64,000 nt of DNA from Streptococcus gwangjuense (GTDB lineage Bacteria; Bacillota; Bacilli; Lactobacillales; Streptococcaceae): contig NZ_CP032621.1 in the NCBI RefSeq assembly GCF_003627155.1, positions 1,902,501-1,966,500 on the forward strand, in the 5' to 3' direction. The notes under the pieces were generated by a model that was not told where the DNA came from, ran no database searches, and saw nothing but the letters and a program-made list of their open reading frames with translations. This document shows positions 1-3,848 of this stretch, piece after piece. Every line of letters starts with the position of its first letter. The stretch's first letter is position 1. Made by a program: the position numbers and the translations under genes.

Positions 1-393
1 TCCAGTCCCATGTTGACGGAGATAAATAACAACTTCCAGCATATCCCTGATTTCTTCTATAGGTAGGTCGTGGCGGGTCTTGAGATAATTTTGGCATTTT
101 TGAAATAGTTTTTCGAGTTCACTAGTCCCTAGGATTGAGCTCATATTGAGATAGGTTTGCCTGATTTCTGTTCGTTGGCTAGGTTGATAGAGATGGCAGA
201 TATAGTCAAACTCTTCAAAACTCATATTGATTTGCCGGAGAAGAAACTCCATATTTTCATATTTGGGAGTTACCTTGCCGCTTTCAATCTTTGATAGGCT
301 GGTTCTTGAAATGACATTTCCACAGACCTCTTCTTGGGTCAATCCTTTTGACTCGCGTATTTGTTTATAGACCTTTCCGAAATCATAACGCAT
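1..393 (-). CDS. Rgg/GadR/MutR-family regulator (partial, N-terminal 131 residues)
   Basis: The frame opens at an ATG at 391-393 on the minus strand behind a GGAGAAAATT ribosome site and stays open to the window edge, so the C-terminus is missing. The first ~60 residues form an XRE-type helix-turn-helix (FGKVYKQIRESKGLTQEEV, then SRTSLSKIESGK). This is followed by the FEEFDYI segment and the start of the helical repeat domain typical of Rgg proteins, cytoplasmic regulators that bind imported short peptides. It is divergent from a pheromone-like mini-gene at 576 and a lactococcin-972-type bacteriocin, so it is probably the local activator. It may correspond to the pneumococcal RtgR-type Rgg known near this chromosomal position, but that is not proven here. 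Confidence 0.88.
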   Translation of the reverse strand, partial: MRYDFGKVYKQIRESKGLTQEEVCGNVISRTSLSKIESGKVTPKYENMEFLLRQINMSFEEFDYICHLYQPSQRTEIRQTYLNMSSILGTSELEKLFQKCQNYLKTRHDLPIEEIRDMLEVVIYLRQHGTG

Positions 394-408
394 AATTTTC
401 TCCTTTTC

Positions 409-422
409 GTGAAAAAGTTAAC
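409..422. promoter_or_regulatory. Candidate Rgg operator, copy 1
   Basis: GTGAAAAAGTTAAC lies just upstream of the rgg ribosome site (rgg reads leftward). It is repeated almost exactly at 495-509. Both copies carry the palindromic core GTTAAC. That Rgg binds here is inferred from the placement and the repetition. Confidence 0.4.
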
Positions 423-446
423 AAATAATAAAATCCTATTAAAAAT

Positions 447-475
447 ATTGTATCATAGTAACAGGGATAGTAAAA
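447..475 (-). promoter_or_regulatory. Putative rgg promoter
   Basis: On the minus strand there is a TACAAT -10 (447-452) with a TG two bases upstream and a TTTTAC -35-like hexamer at 470-475, 17 bp apart. The transcript would cross the operator copy at 409-422 before the rgg start. Confidence 0.45.
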
Positions 476-494
476 AAGAAAACTAAAATAATGT

Positions 495-542
495 GTGAAA
501 AAAGTTAACTAATTTTAAAATAGAGTAAAGAAGAAGTATACT
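495..542 (+). promoter_or_regulatory. Pheromone/bacteriocin promoter with Rgg operator copy 2
   Basis: GTGAAAAAAGTTAAC (495-509) sits directly upstream of a poor -35 (TTTAAA, 514-519) and a good -10 (TATACT, 537-542) with 17 bp spacing. A strong -10 with a degenerate -35 and an adjacent repeat is the usual look of an activator-dependent promoter. Confidence 0.5.
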
Positions 543-575
543 ATAGATACAAAATACAGATAGGAAGGAAAGAGT

Positions 576-662
576 ATGAATAAAAAAGTTTTTCGCTTTT
601 TAGTTGTTCTTGCGTTTTTATTCAGCATTGCTACGGTTTTCCCATGGAGATGGCCGATATAA
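576..662 (+). CDS. Short hydrophobic pheromone-like peptide with C-terminal W-x-W
   Basis: A 28-codon ORF starts at an ATG with an AGGAAGG ribosome site at 562-568. The peptide has a basic N-terminus (MNKK), a hydrophobic core of about 16 residues and the C-terminal tail FPWRWPI. This is the layout of SHP/ComS-type precursors that are exported, trimmed to the C-terminus and re-imported to activate an Rgg. Paired tryptophans are seen in XIP-type (WW) and W-x-W-type streptococcal pheromones. It is divergent from the Rgg at 1-393 and upstream of the bacteriocin, which fits a quorum-sensing pair. The mature form is not known. Confidence 0.7.
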   Translation: MNKKVFRFLVVLAFLFSIATVFPWRWPI

Positions 663-730
663 TGCGCTAGTTGTAAAAATGAAAGAAACGTGAGTCCAAT
701 GGACTACGATACTTGTTGATAAATTACTAT

Positions 731-751
731 AGCTGTTTTTACGGAACAGCT
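731..751 (+). other. Leader hairpin before bacteriocin gene
   Basis: AGCTGTT and AACAGCT form a 7-bp stem with a 7-nt loop, followed closely by the AGGAG ribosome site of the bacteriocin gene. A smaller stem (AGTCC/GGACT) is at 693-705. There is no U-tract, so it is more likely an mRNA processing or stability element than a terminator. Confidence 0.35.
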
Positions 752-774
752 CTCGATAATAGGAGAAATAAATC

Positions 775-1059
775 ATGAGAAAATTAGTTAAAATTGGTAT
801 TGCATCTTTAATGGTATGTGGTATACTTGCTACTACAAATGCTTTAGCAGTATGGGTTGATGGTGGTCAATGGAACTATGGAGTAGGTTGGACAGGAACT
901 TTTGGATATTCTGATTATTTACATTCTACTCGATCTCATACAGCAACTGTCAAGCATGGAGGTAGAATCTCTAAGGATCGTGAAGATCCCGAGGTTTGGG
1001 CTAAAGCTTCCCTTAATAAAATTCCGCCAACAGGATTAGAATATTTCTATGGATTTTAA
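775..1059 (+). CDS. Lactococcin 972-family bacteriocin precursor
   Basis: The 94-residue precursor has a Sec signal peptide (basic start, hydrophobic core, cleavage expected after ALA at about residue 25), leaving about 69 residues. The mature part carries the lactococcin 972 pattern: GGQWNYG near the start, SDYLHSTRSHTATV in the middle, a Gly-Arg/Lys-Asp stretch, VWAKAS, and an aromatic end (EYFYGF). Family members are secreted, unmodified bacteriocins; lactococcin 972 itself binds lipid II and blocks septum formation. The ribosome site AGGAG is at 761-765. The next two genes are the family's usual DUF1430/ABC partners, and a pheromone-like mini-gene precedes it. The call is strong; the target range is unknown. 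Confidence 0.9.
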   Translation: MRKLVKIGIASLMVCGILATTNALAVWVDGGQWNYGVGWTGTFGYSDYLHSTRSHTATVKHGGRISKDREDPEVWAKASLNKIPPTGLEYFYGF

Positions 1060-1069
1060 GTGAAATTTT

Positions 1070-1090
1070 CCCTCTCCTATTAGGAGAGGG
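1070..1090 (+). terminator. Attenuator-like hairpin between bacteriocin and immunity genes
   Basis: CCCTCTCCTA and TAGGAGAGGG form a GC-rich stem with a minimal loop, 10 bases after the bacteriocin stop. It is followed by AGAACTTTAG rather than a U-run, so it probably causes partial termination or protects the upstream mRNA. Either would give more bacteriocin than transporter message. Confidence 0.55.
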
Positions 1091-1113
1091 AGAACTTTAG
1101 TGGAGGTACTTTT

Positions 1114-3222
1114 ATGAAAAAAATCAGTCATCTTTGTATGTTTCTGCTGTTGCTGTGTACCACTTTTTTTGTTTTTAATGTAAACTACACACGTGAAGCG
1201 GTTCGGATTCGGGAAATGGGAAAGACTGTAGATTCTTTGGATTTGTATTTGAAAGATATTAACGAACCTGCAGCGTCTGTTCTTCGATTTTTTGAGGATG
1301 TATCAAAGGAGTACAAAGTCTCCATCATCAAAACAGATAGTGGTGATGAGGTAATCAAGTCTGGTGTTTTTGATAAAGATACCTTCCCCTACCAAGAGTT
1401 TGGGATTTCTTCTCTTGATTTTACCACAGATGGTGAAGGAGTCTACAGTAATAAAGAAATTTCTAATAAACTTGGTACGATTCCGACCTTTCTAAAAGCC
1501 AAGCCTATTCAGCTTATGACTTTTCAAACCTATATCAAGGATACATCTCGTAGTTTAAATGGTCGCTATACGATAACTTCTACACAAGAGATGGATAAGG
1601 ATAGGATTGTACAGAAATGGAGCGATTTTTTCAAGATAGACCAGGCTACCTTGCTAGAGCCTACCTATAAAAGTGCAGTGGAAGTCATAAACCGAGATTT
1701 GCTTTTAACTGCCATTGTTTTTGTCTTGGCTATTTTACTTCTTGTGTTAGTAACAGTTTATCAGCCGATGATGGAGATGAAACGAGTGGGGGTTCAAAAG
1801 TTACTTGGTTTTCAAAGCGGGGCGATTTTAGCTGGTTTTGTAAAGACTAATTTTTATCTTCTCTTGGGTGGAAGTCTTGTCATTGACTTGGGACTATTTT
1901 TAGTGCTAGACTACAGGCCAAAACTTCTGTTCCCAAGTTTACTCTTATCCCAATTTCTGCTTTTACAGTTGTATTTGTTCATCAGTTGGCTGACCTACCT
2001 GATGATTCAGAAAATGACAGTTAGTTCCATATTGAAAGGTTTTTCATCTGTCAAACTTGGTCTCATCTTCAATTATGTGATGAAAATAGGGACAACTATT
2101 TTACTGACGGCCTTACTGATTGGGGTAGGCAGAAGTCTAGAACAAGAAAACAAAGAACTTGCTTATCAGCAACAGTGGGTAAGCCAAGGGAATTACTTGA
2201 CCTTAGAAACCTTCCAACTCAATGATAACCTGTGGCAAGAAGAGCTAGCAGGGTCAGGGAAATCTACAGATTATTTCTACCAATTTTATCAAGATTTGCT
2301 AGCAAAAATACAAGTAAATTATGTGCGAAGTGCGAGTCTTCCTATCAAACCAGTCATCAAAGCAGAACAAGTGCAGCAGTACCAACTGCCTGATAAGGTA
2401 GATGTTTACTATGCTAATAGCAATTTTCTAAAGAGCAAGGGATTCAAGTTACCAGAAACCAGCACTAAAAAAGTTATTTTGATGCCAGCCAGTGCCAAAG
2501 GACAAGAAGGTAAGAATCAGTTCTTGGGAAAATCCATAGCCTATCTTTCTATGAGGTATGAAGATCAGCAAAAGCAAAGGATAGAAGATATGGATGTAGA
2601 AATTGCCTACTATGAAGGAGATTGGTCTTTCTTCCCTTATAATAATGAGCGAAAGGAAAATCTCCACAATCCAATCATTAGTCTGGTAAATGATCAAGAC
2701 ATGATGTGGGAAGAAAAGACTCGCTTGTCAACGACAGGTTTAAACAATCCGATGAAAGTTGAAAATACAGAACAAAATCAAAAAGTGATTACGGAGTTAG
2801 TTGAGAAATTATCAGATGGGAATTATTTAAAATTTTCATCGATTCAAGCCATTCAACAAGAGAAAGTAGATTCTTATCGAGATGCAGTTCGAAATCTTAA
2901 TATACTCTTTGCTTTATTTGGTTTCCTTAGCATGATGATTTCCTACTTCTTACTAGTAACAACTTTCTTATTGAAGCGAACAGATATCATTACCAAGAAG
3001 TTTATGGGGTGGAAGCTGGTTGATCGCTATCGTCCTCTCCTCGTTCTGCTCTTGCTGGGCTATAGTCTCCCTCTTCTAATCTTGATTTTCTTTGCCCATG
3101 CGCTTTTGCCACTTCTACTGTTTGCAGGCTTTACATGTTTGGATATACTATTTGTGCTAGCCTTGGCTTCTAGGATGGAGAAAAGAAGTCTAGTAGAGTT
3201 ATTGAAAGGGGGCATCTTATGA
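1114..3222 (+). CDS. DUF1430 bacteriocin-associated integral membrane protein (ABC permease-like)
   Basis: The 702-residue membrane protein has one N-terminal membrane segment (LCMFLLLLCTTFFVF), a ~160-residue extracellular part, a group of 3-4 hydrophobic segments around residues 195-345, a second large extracellular part, and about three segments at the C-terminus (from ~610). This FtsX/MacB-like layout and its position after a lactococcin-972 gene match the DUF1430 family, which works with a dedicated ATPase in immunity and/or export. Because the bacteriocin has its own Sec signal, self-protection is the likelier role. The stop overlaps the ATPase start by 4 bp, implying translational coupling. 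Confidence 0.85.
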   Translation: MKKISHLCMFLLLLCTTFFVFNVNYTREAVRIREMGKTVDSLDLYLKDINEPAASVLRFFEDVSKEYKVSIIKTDSGDEVIKSGVFDKDTFPYQEFGISSLDFTTDGEGVYSNKEISNKLGTIPTFLKAKPIQLMTFQTYIKDTSRSLNGRYTITSTQEMDKDRIVQKWSDFFKIDQATLLEPTYKSAVEVINRDLLLTAIVFVLAILLLVLVTVYQPMMEMKRVGVQKLLGFQSGAILAGFVKTNFYLLLGGSLVIDLGLFLVLDYRPKLLFPSLLLSQFLLLQLYLFISWLTYLMIQKMTVSSILKGFSSVKLGLIFNYVMKIGTTILLTALLIGVGRSLEQENKELAYQQQWVSQGNYLTLETFQLNDNLWQEELAGSGKSTDYFYQFYQDLLAKIQVNYVRSASLPIKPVIKAEQVQQYQLPDKVDVYYANSNFLKSKGFKLPETSTKKVILMPASAKGQEGKNQFLGKSIAYLSMRYEDQQKQRIEDMDVEIAYYEGDWSFFPYNNERKENLHNPIISLVNDQDMMWEEKTRLSTTGLNNPMKVENTEQNQKVITELVEKLSDGNYLKFSSIQAIQQEKVDSYRDAVRNLNILFALFGFLSMMISYFLLVTTFLLKRTDIITKKFMGWKLVDRYRPLLVLLLLGYSLPLLILIFFAHALLPLLLFAGFTCLDILFVLALASRMEKRSLVELLKGGIL

Positions 3223-3848
3223 TTGAGTTGGAAAATATTACCAAAACCATTGGGGGAAAAGTGATTTTGGATAACTTGTCTCTCAGGATTGATCAGGGGG
3301 ATTTGGTAGCCATTGTTGGTAAGAGTGGTAGTGGTAAGTCGACCTTGTTAAATTTATTAGGTTTGATAGATGGTGATTATAGCGGACGGTATGAGATTTT
3401 TGGTCAGACAAATCTAGCGGTCAATTCTGCCAAGTCACAAACAATAATCCGTGAACATATCTCTTATCTATTTCAAAATTTTGCTCTGATTGATGATGAA
3501 ACGGTCGAGTACAATCTTATGCTGGCGCTGAAATATGTGAAATTGTCTAAGAAAGACAAGCTCAAAAAGGTGGAAGAGATTTTAGAGAGAGTAGGTTTGT
3601 CAGCTACTTTGCATCAAAAGGTCTCCGAGTTGTCTGGTGGGGAGCAACAACGAATTGCAGTTGCTAGAGCCATCTTAAAACCCAGCCAGCTGATTTTAGC
3701 CGATGAACCAACAGGTTCTCTGGATCCTGAAAATAGAGATTTGGTCTTGAAGTTTCTCTTAGAGATGAATCGAGAAGGGAAAACAGTCATTATTGTGACC
3801 CACGATGCTTATGTAGCCCAACAATGTCATCGTGTCATTGAATTGTGA
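3219..3848 (+). CDS. ABC transporter ATP-binding protein of the lactococcin 972 immunity/transport system
   Basis: The 209-residue ATPase has Walker A GKSGSGKST (about residues 34-42), a Q-loop, the signature LSGGEQQR, Walker B LILADEPTG, a D-loop and an H-loop in VTHD. It resembles the LolD/MacB class of ATPases that drive FtsX-like permeases. It overlaps the upstream DUF1430 gene by 4 bp, so the two form one transporter and are co-translated. It is probably the last gene of the bacteriocin operon, since a long non-coding stretch and a new promoter follow. Confidence 0.88.
   Translation: MIELENITKTIGGKVILDNLSLRIDQGDLVAIVGKSGSGKSTLLNLLGLIDGDYSGRYEIFGQTNLAVNSAKSQTIIREHISYLFQNFALIDDETVEYNLMLALKYVKLSKKDKLKKVEEILERVGLSATLHQKVSELSGGEQQRIAVARAILKPSQLILADEPTGSLDPENRDLVLKFLLEMNREGKTVIIVTHDAYVAQQCHRVIEL

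Follow-up and report, generated by a model that had tools for sequence, protein, structure and literature searches.

A Trp-x-Trp peptide pair of RtgR/RtgS type beside a lactococcin-972-type bacteriocin operon in Streptococcus

What turns on a lactococcin-972-type bacteriocin operon in Streptococcus? PMC11796350 calls the control of streptococcins A, C and D unclear, and a locus at the start of a 64,000-nucleotide (nt) stretch of DNA from Streptococcus gwangjuense, of the mitis group (NZ_CP032621.1, positions 1,902,501 to 1,966,500; "the window", numbered from its first letter) raises the question directly. The locus is compact: a divergent regulator gene, a 28-codon open reading frame (ORF) whose product ends in FPWRWPI, a lactococcin-972-family precursor gene and two partner genes. 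By analogy with the published RtgR/RtgS system, we consider it probable that these genes form a pheromone circuit of RtgR/RtgS type that autoinduces a lactococcin-972-type operon; activation, a single transcript and bacteriocin activity are parts of this reading that we infer.

The regulator, its peptide and the operon they face

The regulator gene lies on the minus strand at the left edge of the window (1–393), which holds the N-terminal 131 of its 287 residues; the gene is intact in the genome (contig positions 1902033–1902893) and is cut by the window edge. A search with curated models identifies a helix-turn-helix protein (HTH_3, 40.8 bits). Its score against RGG_Cterm (TIGR01716) is 15.8 bits, below the cut-off of 36.9, and the name Rgg is therefore valid only in the wide sense of an RtgR/ComR-like protein. 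A profile built from 15 relatives finds 7zcv, 9lth ("Transcriptional regulator") and 4ryk (Lmo0325) as its best matches among solved structures, and matches ComR in the N-terminal domain. A regulator 87% identical to ours stands at the rtg position in locus L075, after argH and before a 705-residue ATP-binding cassette (ABC) protein, with a 28-residue peptide, MNKKIFCILVCIISLISLAIIFPWGWPI. A second locus, L095 in genome G157, holds regulator remnants only and an L075-type peptide ending in FPWGWSI; the rtg layout suggests that G157 is S. pneumoniae. The two peptide ends, ...AIIFPWGWPI in L075 and ...AIIFPWGWSI in L095, are exactly those published for RtgS types A and B (PMC13361665), and a P27S change in RtgS is described in PMC7018657. 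We take L075 for an rtg locus and judge kinship to RtgR through its regulator, with which the window regulator shares a 56-row clade in a quick tree (SH-aLRT 96). Given the 87% identity and the published RtgS ends, the window pair is, judged by sequence, a relative of RtgR/RtgS (an Rgg/WxW pair, for Trp-x-Trp) and not a canonical pair of Rgg and short hydrophobic peptide (SHP).

Canonical Rgg/SHP pairs have a conserved Asp or Glu in the peptide and a regulator expected to exceed the TIGR01716 cut-off, whereas the window peptide contains neither residue and its regulator falls short of the model. In ComRS, comS lies downstream of comR on the same strand, with a GACA..TGTC box; the window layout is divergent, and neither GACA nor TGTC occurs in 394–575. 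With RtgR/RtgS the window shares a peptide gene divergent from the regulator, a 28-residue peptide free of Asp and Glu with Trp-X-Trp near its C-terminus and an FPW-x-W end, and an inverted repeat in the promoter. It differs in the residue between the tryptophans, Gly in RtgS and Arg here, and in output: rtg serves a peptidase-containing ABC transporter (PCAT) and double-glycine peptides (PMC7018657), the window a Sec-type lactococcin-972 operon. The same paper proposes that Rgg/WxW pairs, among them Rgg1518 and SSA_2251, make up a separate group, and leaves them for future study; in our data, the regulators of L287–L289 (44% identical) are accompanied by a peptide that differs little from the published one of Rgg1518 and has a short insertion.

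The peptide gene (576–662, plus strand) has a good Shine-Dalgarno sequence, GGAAGG, and encodes a putative pheromone precursor of 28 residues. In relatives this ORF lies 181–185 bp from the regulator start, the exception being L096 (+103, GTG start). Across 12 alleles of the MNKKVFRF type, codon changes are synonymous or limited to residues 11, 25, 27 and 28, and both tryptophans of FPWxW are invariant. By analogy with RtgS, ATVFPWRWPI is the predicted active C-terminus.

The original prediction had drawn these features as one compact island of an Rgg with an SHP-like peptide, a Sec-signalled lactococcin-972-like precursor and a DUF1430/ABC pair, and each is present where it was placed. The 28-codon ORF goes beyond chance by its recurrent position and conserved FPWxW. 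The divergent regulator/peptide pair also stands, but as RtgR/RtgS in kind and with no ordinary SHP. The precursor assignment is confirmed: the 94-residue product of 775–1059 (plus strand) scores 76.7 bits against PF09683 (cut-off 22) and 88.5 against TIGR01653 (cut-off 32.1), matches the solved structure of lactococcin 972 (2LGN, E 1.6e-6) and carries, as judged by inspection, a Sec-type signal peptide that is probably cleaved after ALA25. Both partner genes, also on the plus strand, pass family cut-offs, namely a 702-residue, bacteriocin-associated membrane protein and putative immunity protein (1114–3222; TIGR01654 bact_immun_7tm, 643 bits, cut-off 189) and a 209-residue ATPase (3219–3848; TIGR03608 L_ocin_972_ABC, 295 bits, cut-off 255); the DUF1430 Pfam model, however, scores 18.9 on the membrane protein, under its cut-off of 28.2.

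Linkage and exchange across Streptococcus genomes

We searched 284 Streptococcus genomes, a collection with one genome per species, for the regulator and found a match at E 1e-20 or better in 143. In 63 of 81 loci we counted 64 full-length copies, taken as ORFs of 250 residues or longer with an identity of about 66% or above. An intact WxW ORF accompanies 22 of these copies, a cut one accompanies one, a 37-residue ORF accompanies 17, and 24 have neither. A lactococcin-972 gene is the first divergent clustered gene in 10 of the 22 WxW copies versus none of the 42 others (Fisher p 4e-6), and lies within 1.5 kb in 13 of 22 versus none of 42 (p 4e-8); the rows are related, not independent, and the p values are descriptive. 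The first cargo of the other 12 WxW copies is c61/c62 (four), c101, c149 or c13 (two each), a PCAT-like ABC protein (L075) or an unclustered 180-residue ORF near a contig end (L123).

We then compared the regions upstream of 20 close bacteriocin homologues (79–100% identity). A search of mitis-group genomes for the 28-codon ORF together with a lactococcin-972 gene had been suggested as a check; the WxW ORF lies directly upstream in half of these homologues (G000, G139, G159, G096, G197, G120, G169, G128, G126 and G076), including S. mitis BCC45 (L145, contig of G096) and a record named S. pneumoniae 19F (L143, contig of G159), which probably counts as a species of its own in this collection, with a gap to the bacteriocin gene of 113–118 nt in nine; the start in G128 is uncertain. 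In three more (G222, G129, G127) the WxW ORF lies about 1.15 kb upstream with two genes between, and in G222 and G127 the bacteriocin frame is interrupted by a stop. Five homologues (G219, G101, G272, G200, G125) are instead preceded by a 47-residue peptide ending in QGIDTGAYYSP[G/S], which by our own judgement is PhrA-like (the heptapeptide of PhrA is LDVGKAD, that of PhrA2 VDLGLAD; PMC5436883), and two (G157, G245) by a decayed gene for such a peptide. A c29 regulator gene was seen in four of the five Phr loci, the short piece of G125 holding only sequence like its end; HTH_3 is matched by a c29 member taken from a different locus. Such a TprA/PhrA-like unit (PMC5436883) is an alternative RRNPP-type module before the same bacteriocin gene and is absent from the window.

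The leader that follows the signal module is common to both arrangements. Over the 84 nt at 691–774, the window is identical at 83–84 positions to all four WxW loci whose regulators are at least 86% identical, and likewise to four of the five Phr loci; G125 matches at 72 positions and the two decayed loci at 83 and 78. The count falls to 54–59 in five loci of a clade with 67% identical regulators and does not exceed 25 upstream of eight further lactococcin-972 genes. Because WxW and Phr loci share this leader, the exchange point lies just upstream of it. The two modules look interchangeable. Relatives suggest that a signal module travels with the bacteriocin gene, may be lost along with it and may be exchanged for a different one. 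PMC6120550 describes Rgg and PlcR-type regulators flanking pneumococcal bacteriocin clusters and clusters switching next to conserved TprA or Rgg, so that cargo changes beside a kept regulator; here the converse is seen, a single bacteriocin gene occurring with different regulators and two modules.

Joint absence is seen in six copies (L062, L067, L068, L097, L099, L138), in which the regulator directly faces the TIGR01654 gene across 161–184 bp and neither the peptide nor the bacteriocin gene is present. L138 keeps the operator described below and a good -10 (TATAAT), so its immunity/transport genes would stand under the pheromone promoter; the other five are without the stretch holding the -10. 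The arrangement resembles the bacteriocin-less scbBC loci in PMC11796350.

Seen from the bacteriocin side, PF09683 has 105 genes in 80 of the 284 genomes. An RtgR-like regulator (phmmer E<1e-4) lies divergently within 2.5 kb of 25 of these genes, one as a remnant (G157); the other 80 are without such a neighbour, 11 of them having less than 2.6 kb of upstream sequence. A strict W-x-W or WW peptide is present at 17 of the 25 linked loci, at three of them 1.15 kb away, and in a quick tree (long branches, 35 of 88 forks open) the linked regulators are spread over several distinct branches. In L225, L246 and L250, 37% identical regulators occur with a lactococcin-972 gene and a 41–43-residue peptide ending in ETQPATHLVG, perhaps a third signal type.

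A peptide circuit for the lactococcin 972 class is already known in one form, since ScbR with a WW peptide of S. pseudopneumoniae can switch on streptococcin B promoters (PMC11796350, 2024). ScbR/SIP is like the window in placing a ComR/Rgg-type regulator and a Trp peptide before a lactococcin-972-like operon, but its layout is that of ComRS, with a ComR box, and its peptide is of WW type (...GDWWHG, from S. pseudopneumoniae), where the window has a divergent layout, WxW and another dyad. In S. pneumoniae the streptococcin B locus is driven by competence via ComE, according to the same source. A streptococcin B label that we tried for L217, L218, L221 and L223 was rejected, as no ComR box or DWW peptide was found there.

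SSA_2251 of S. sanguinis SK36, with ...SVFPWWWLWW (PMC7018657), is an Rgg/WxW pair like that of the window. L113, similar to the SSA_2251 locus, has a 46% identical regulator, a peptide ending ...SVFPWWWSWW, and a lactococcin-972-like gene with an ABC pair. The type is distant: neither the L113 precursor (NCBIfam) nor its relative in L104 (Pfam) gives a hit, TIGR01654 does not hit the L113 membrane partner, and the ATPase falls under the TIGR03608 cut-off. In sanguinis-type loci the gene adjoining the peptide region (c87: L104, L105, L113) resembles lactococcin 972 only through a brief profile hit (hhalign 90.6% over 23 columns), with a clear WxW ORF in L113 alone of the three; L110 and L108 belong to the family.

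In the literature searched, which covers subscription journals little and includes passages of PMC13361665, we found neither RtgR/WxW control of lactococcin 972, nor WxW and Phr modules ahead of one bacteriocin gene, nor the joint absence of peptide and bacteriocin gene, and no functional test of the present pairing is reported there. The original prediction had offered a Trp-type pheromone upstream of a lactococcin-972 gene as a quorum-sensing circuit for a poorly understood class; the pairing is conserved, and with ScbR/SIP a peptide circuit for the class has already been published. On whether the pair is conserved independently of the bacteriocin genes the evidence is divided, with the 12 WxW copies serving other cargo and the 42 copies without WxW on one side, and the conserved pairing and joint absence on the other.

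Two further groups of small ORFs were observed beside these regulators. The conserved 37-residue ORF (e.g. MFKNKELFRVVMIFVIGTILILMTPVLFKVVMELFSK; MFKN/MRKN type) occupies the place of the WxW gene, about 129–175 bp from the regulator start, beside 17 full-length and two truncated regulator copies (L063, L065, L066, L069, L074, L078, L086–L089, L091–L093, L131–L134, L136, L137). The gene after it encodes a 195-residue unknown protein in 11 of 17 cases and a 78-residue protein in 6 of 17; we considered the ORF as a possible further pheromone. The second group comprises small proteins with signal-peptide-like N-termini, several beside Rgg/WxW pairs: L066, L076, L094 and L140 (c61/c62), L073 and L135 (c101), L129 and L130 (c149), L064 and L135 (c95), L133 and L139 (c150), and L106 (c219). 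Those of c62, c101, c149, c95 and c150 have no Pfam match, and the group holds candidate new bacteriocins.

Promoter, proposed mechanism and rival readings

The interval between the regulator start (393) and the bacteriocin gene (775) holds the promoter region, the peptide ORF and a 112-nt leader. A putative operator, GTGAAAAAAGTTAAC, at 495–509 (plus strand) is the sole exact copy in the genome and directly precedes a weak -35 (TTTAAA, 514–519), separated by 17 nt from a -10 (TATACT, 537–542); these hexamers are consensus matches only, as are those of the regulator gene at 447–474 (minus strand). A regulator-proximal putative copy one A shorter, GTGAAAAAGTTAAC, lies at 409–422 (plus strand), and L075 and L095 have a near-identical operator site. 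Both rtgS promoters contain an inverted repeat required for induction (PMC7018657), to which the dyad at 495–509 may be akin. We scored a related dyad, TGTGA-N7-TTACA, in 14 representatives; in 10 its best match falls 70–91 nt upstream of the peptide's ATG, and in L002, L076 and L098 it coincides with the regulator-proximal copy (165–168 nt).

Within the leader (663–774, plus strand), the alignment of the 20 homologues and a predicted fold mark a dyad at 693–705 and a hairpin at 731–751; the fold is mildly better than shuffles (z -1.7). A scan found no terminator-like site on the plus strand in 662–775, and 380–1130 gave no Rfam match up to E 0.5. The leader also contains a tiny ORF (699–719, MDYDTC), which reads MDFNVYK or MDFDVYK in loci of the 67% clade. 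Most relatives, but not the window, have GGAAGG ahead of this ORF; it is possibly a leader peptide, or chance.

RtgR/S offers a template for how such a circuit would run: RtgR is an activator required for the response, autoinduction needs PptAB and Ami, and C8–C12 peptides are active (PMC7018657). In the window, the 28-residue precursor would be exported, trimmed to a C-terminal peptide of about 8–12 residues around ATVFPWRWPI, taken back up by an oligopeptide permease and loaded onto the divergent regulator; the genome holds the Pfam families M50, SBP_bac_5 and EcsB (processing protease, oligopeptide-binding protein, exporter). The loaded regulator would bind the dyad at 495–509 next to the weak -35 and turn on one transcript carrying the pheromone gene, the bacteriocin gene and the membrane-protein/ATPase pair, and the bacteriocin precursor would leave via Sec. 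A positive loop is expected because RtgR/S autoinduces in that way. The upstream module would be exchangeable, as the PhrA-like module before the same operon in some relatives suggests.

Several points weigh against this reading. The pairing is not obligate: in 12 of 22 intact WxW copies the pair serves other cargo first, and five of the 20 homologues have the PhrA-like module instead. Among the 25 linked PF09683 loci, three have another peptide, ending in PATHLVG, G264, G262:C2, G157 and G032 have no clear WxW, and G256 has a loose one. The summed dyad score of 118 exceeds the shuffle mean of 98.5 and maximum of 107, but the pattern was picked from the same sequences and is not an independent test, the 300 shuffles are first-order Markov draws, only 5 of the 14 representatives reach p<0.05 individually (worst 0.70), and the top match in L293 is only 34 nt away. 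Allowing up to two mismatches, the operator is not enriched genome-wide and reveals no regulon (13 sites versus 20 for the reversed pattern). We also rejected an idea of pherotypes set by x (K, N, Q, R or G), as no single regulator position tracks x across 16 pairs. For the window locus itself, we infer each biochemical step, that all the genes share one transcript, that the regulator activates and does not repress, and that the product acts as a bacteriocin.

The best surviving rival, which we hold to be unlikely, makes the pair a general island regulator and has the bacteriocin operon adjoin it at a recombination hotspot and be driven otherwise. The high variability of the LysM/sdaAB–mnmA region speaks for it, as do the other first cargo of those 12 WxW copies and the occurrence of identical regulator sequences with and without WxW (L066, L126). 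Yet the WxW-to-bacteriocin spacing is 113–118 nt in nine homologues, with no terminator-like site in the window gap, the peptide and bacteriocin gene are both absent from six copies that keep the partner genes, and the linkage recurs beside diverged regulators.

Some other RRNPP regulators are repressors relieved by their peptide. That the window regulator works in this way rather than as an activator appears improbable: the second operator copy at 409–422, near the regulator start, would suit repression, but an operator at 495–509 upstream of a weak -35 is an activator layout, and RtgR is required for activation (PMC7018657). More improbable again is that the product of 775–1059 has host cells as its main target, the role proposed for S. 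iniae Sil (PMC4004548), an S. iniae homologue also being mentioned in PMC11796350; the close match to lactococcin 972 and the partner genes point away from it, as does the reported activity of streptococcin B, of the same class, against pneumococci (PMC11796350). That the 28-codon ORF is a chance frame is very improbable, for although short ORFs are abundant (75 of at least 20 residues overlap the first 6 kb), its relatives have a constant position, a ribosome site and the FPWxW end, and change is mostly synonymous outside four codons.

Setting of the locus and what it may mean

The site is flanked by sdaAB/LysM on one side and mnmA on the other, in the order sdaAB, LysM, the locus, then in relatives a substrate-binding protein gene, argG and argH, and finally mnmA. 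A 298-residue protein with a hydrophobic N-terminal stretch (L002:10723-11616, minus strand), placed instead on the mnmA side in L078, L086, L093, L136 and L141, is a mobile neighbour of the site. The gap between the bacteriocin gene and the first partner gene holds a perfect inverted repeat, CCCTCTCCTATTAGGAGAGGG, at 1070–1090 (plus strand), without a T run, which may set the ratio of bacteriocin to partner-gene product.

Streptococcins A–E of pneumococcus share the three-gene plan of the window locus (PMC6120550). A 79% identical bacteriocin homologue occurs in the pneumococcus-like G157, and the genomic place fits SP_0109, probably streptococcin C; judged by gene order and this homologue, the locus may correspond to the pneumococcal scc locus. 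PMC3329508 reports that in S. parasanguinis a lactococcin-972-type gene varies with the phase of growth, which would fit density control and does not show it.

If the window pair is the pheromone circuit that we think probable, the locus ties together two open points, the control of streptococcins (PMC11796350) and the Rgg/WxW group (PMC7018657). It offers an exact peptide, operator and target, and an instance in nature where one bacteriocin gene is preceded by differing signal modules. More tentatively, and with the balance leaning against it, Rgg/WxW circuits may serve streptococci generally to control Sec-exported bacteriocins, with WxW and Phr cassettes swapped at a conserved leader ahead of a streptococcin C-like operon. 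Strains that have lost the pheromone and the bacteriocin gene while keeping sensor and immunity/transport genes under the same operator (with a complete promoter in L138) could then listen to their neighbours and arm, and their loci would, if this is true, be possible eavesdroppers.

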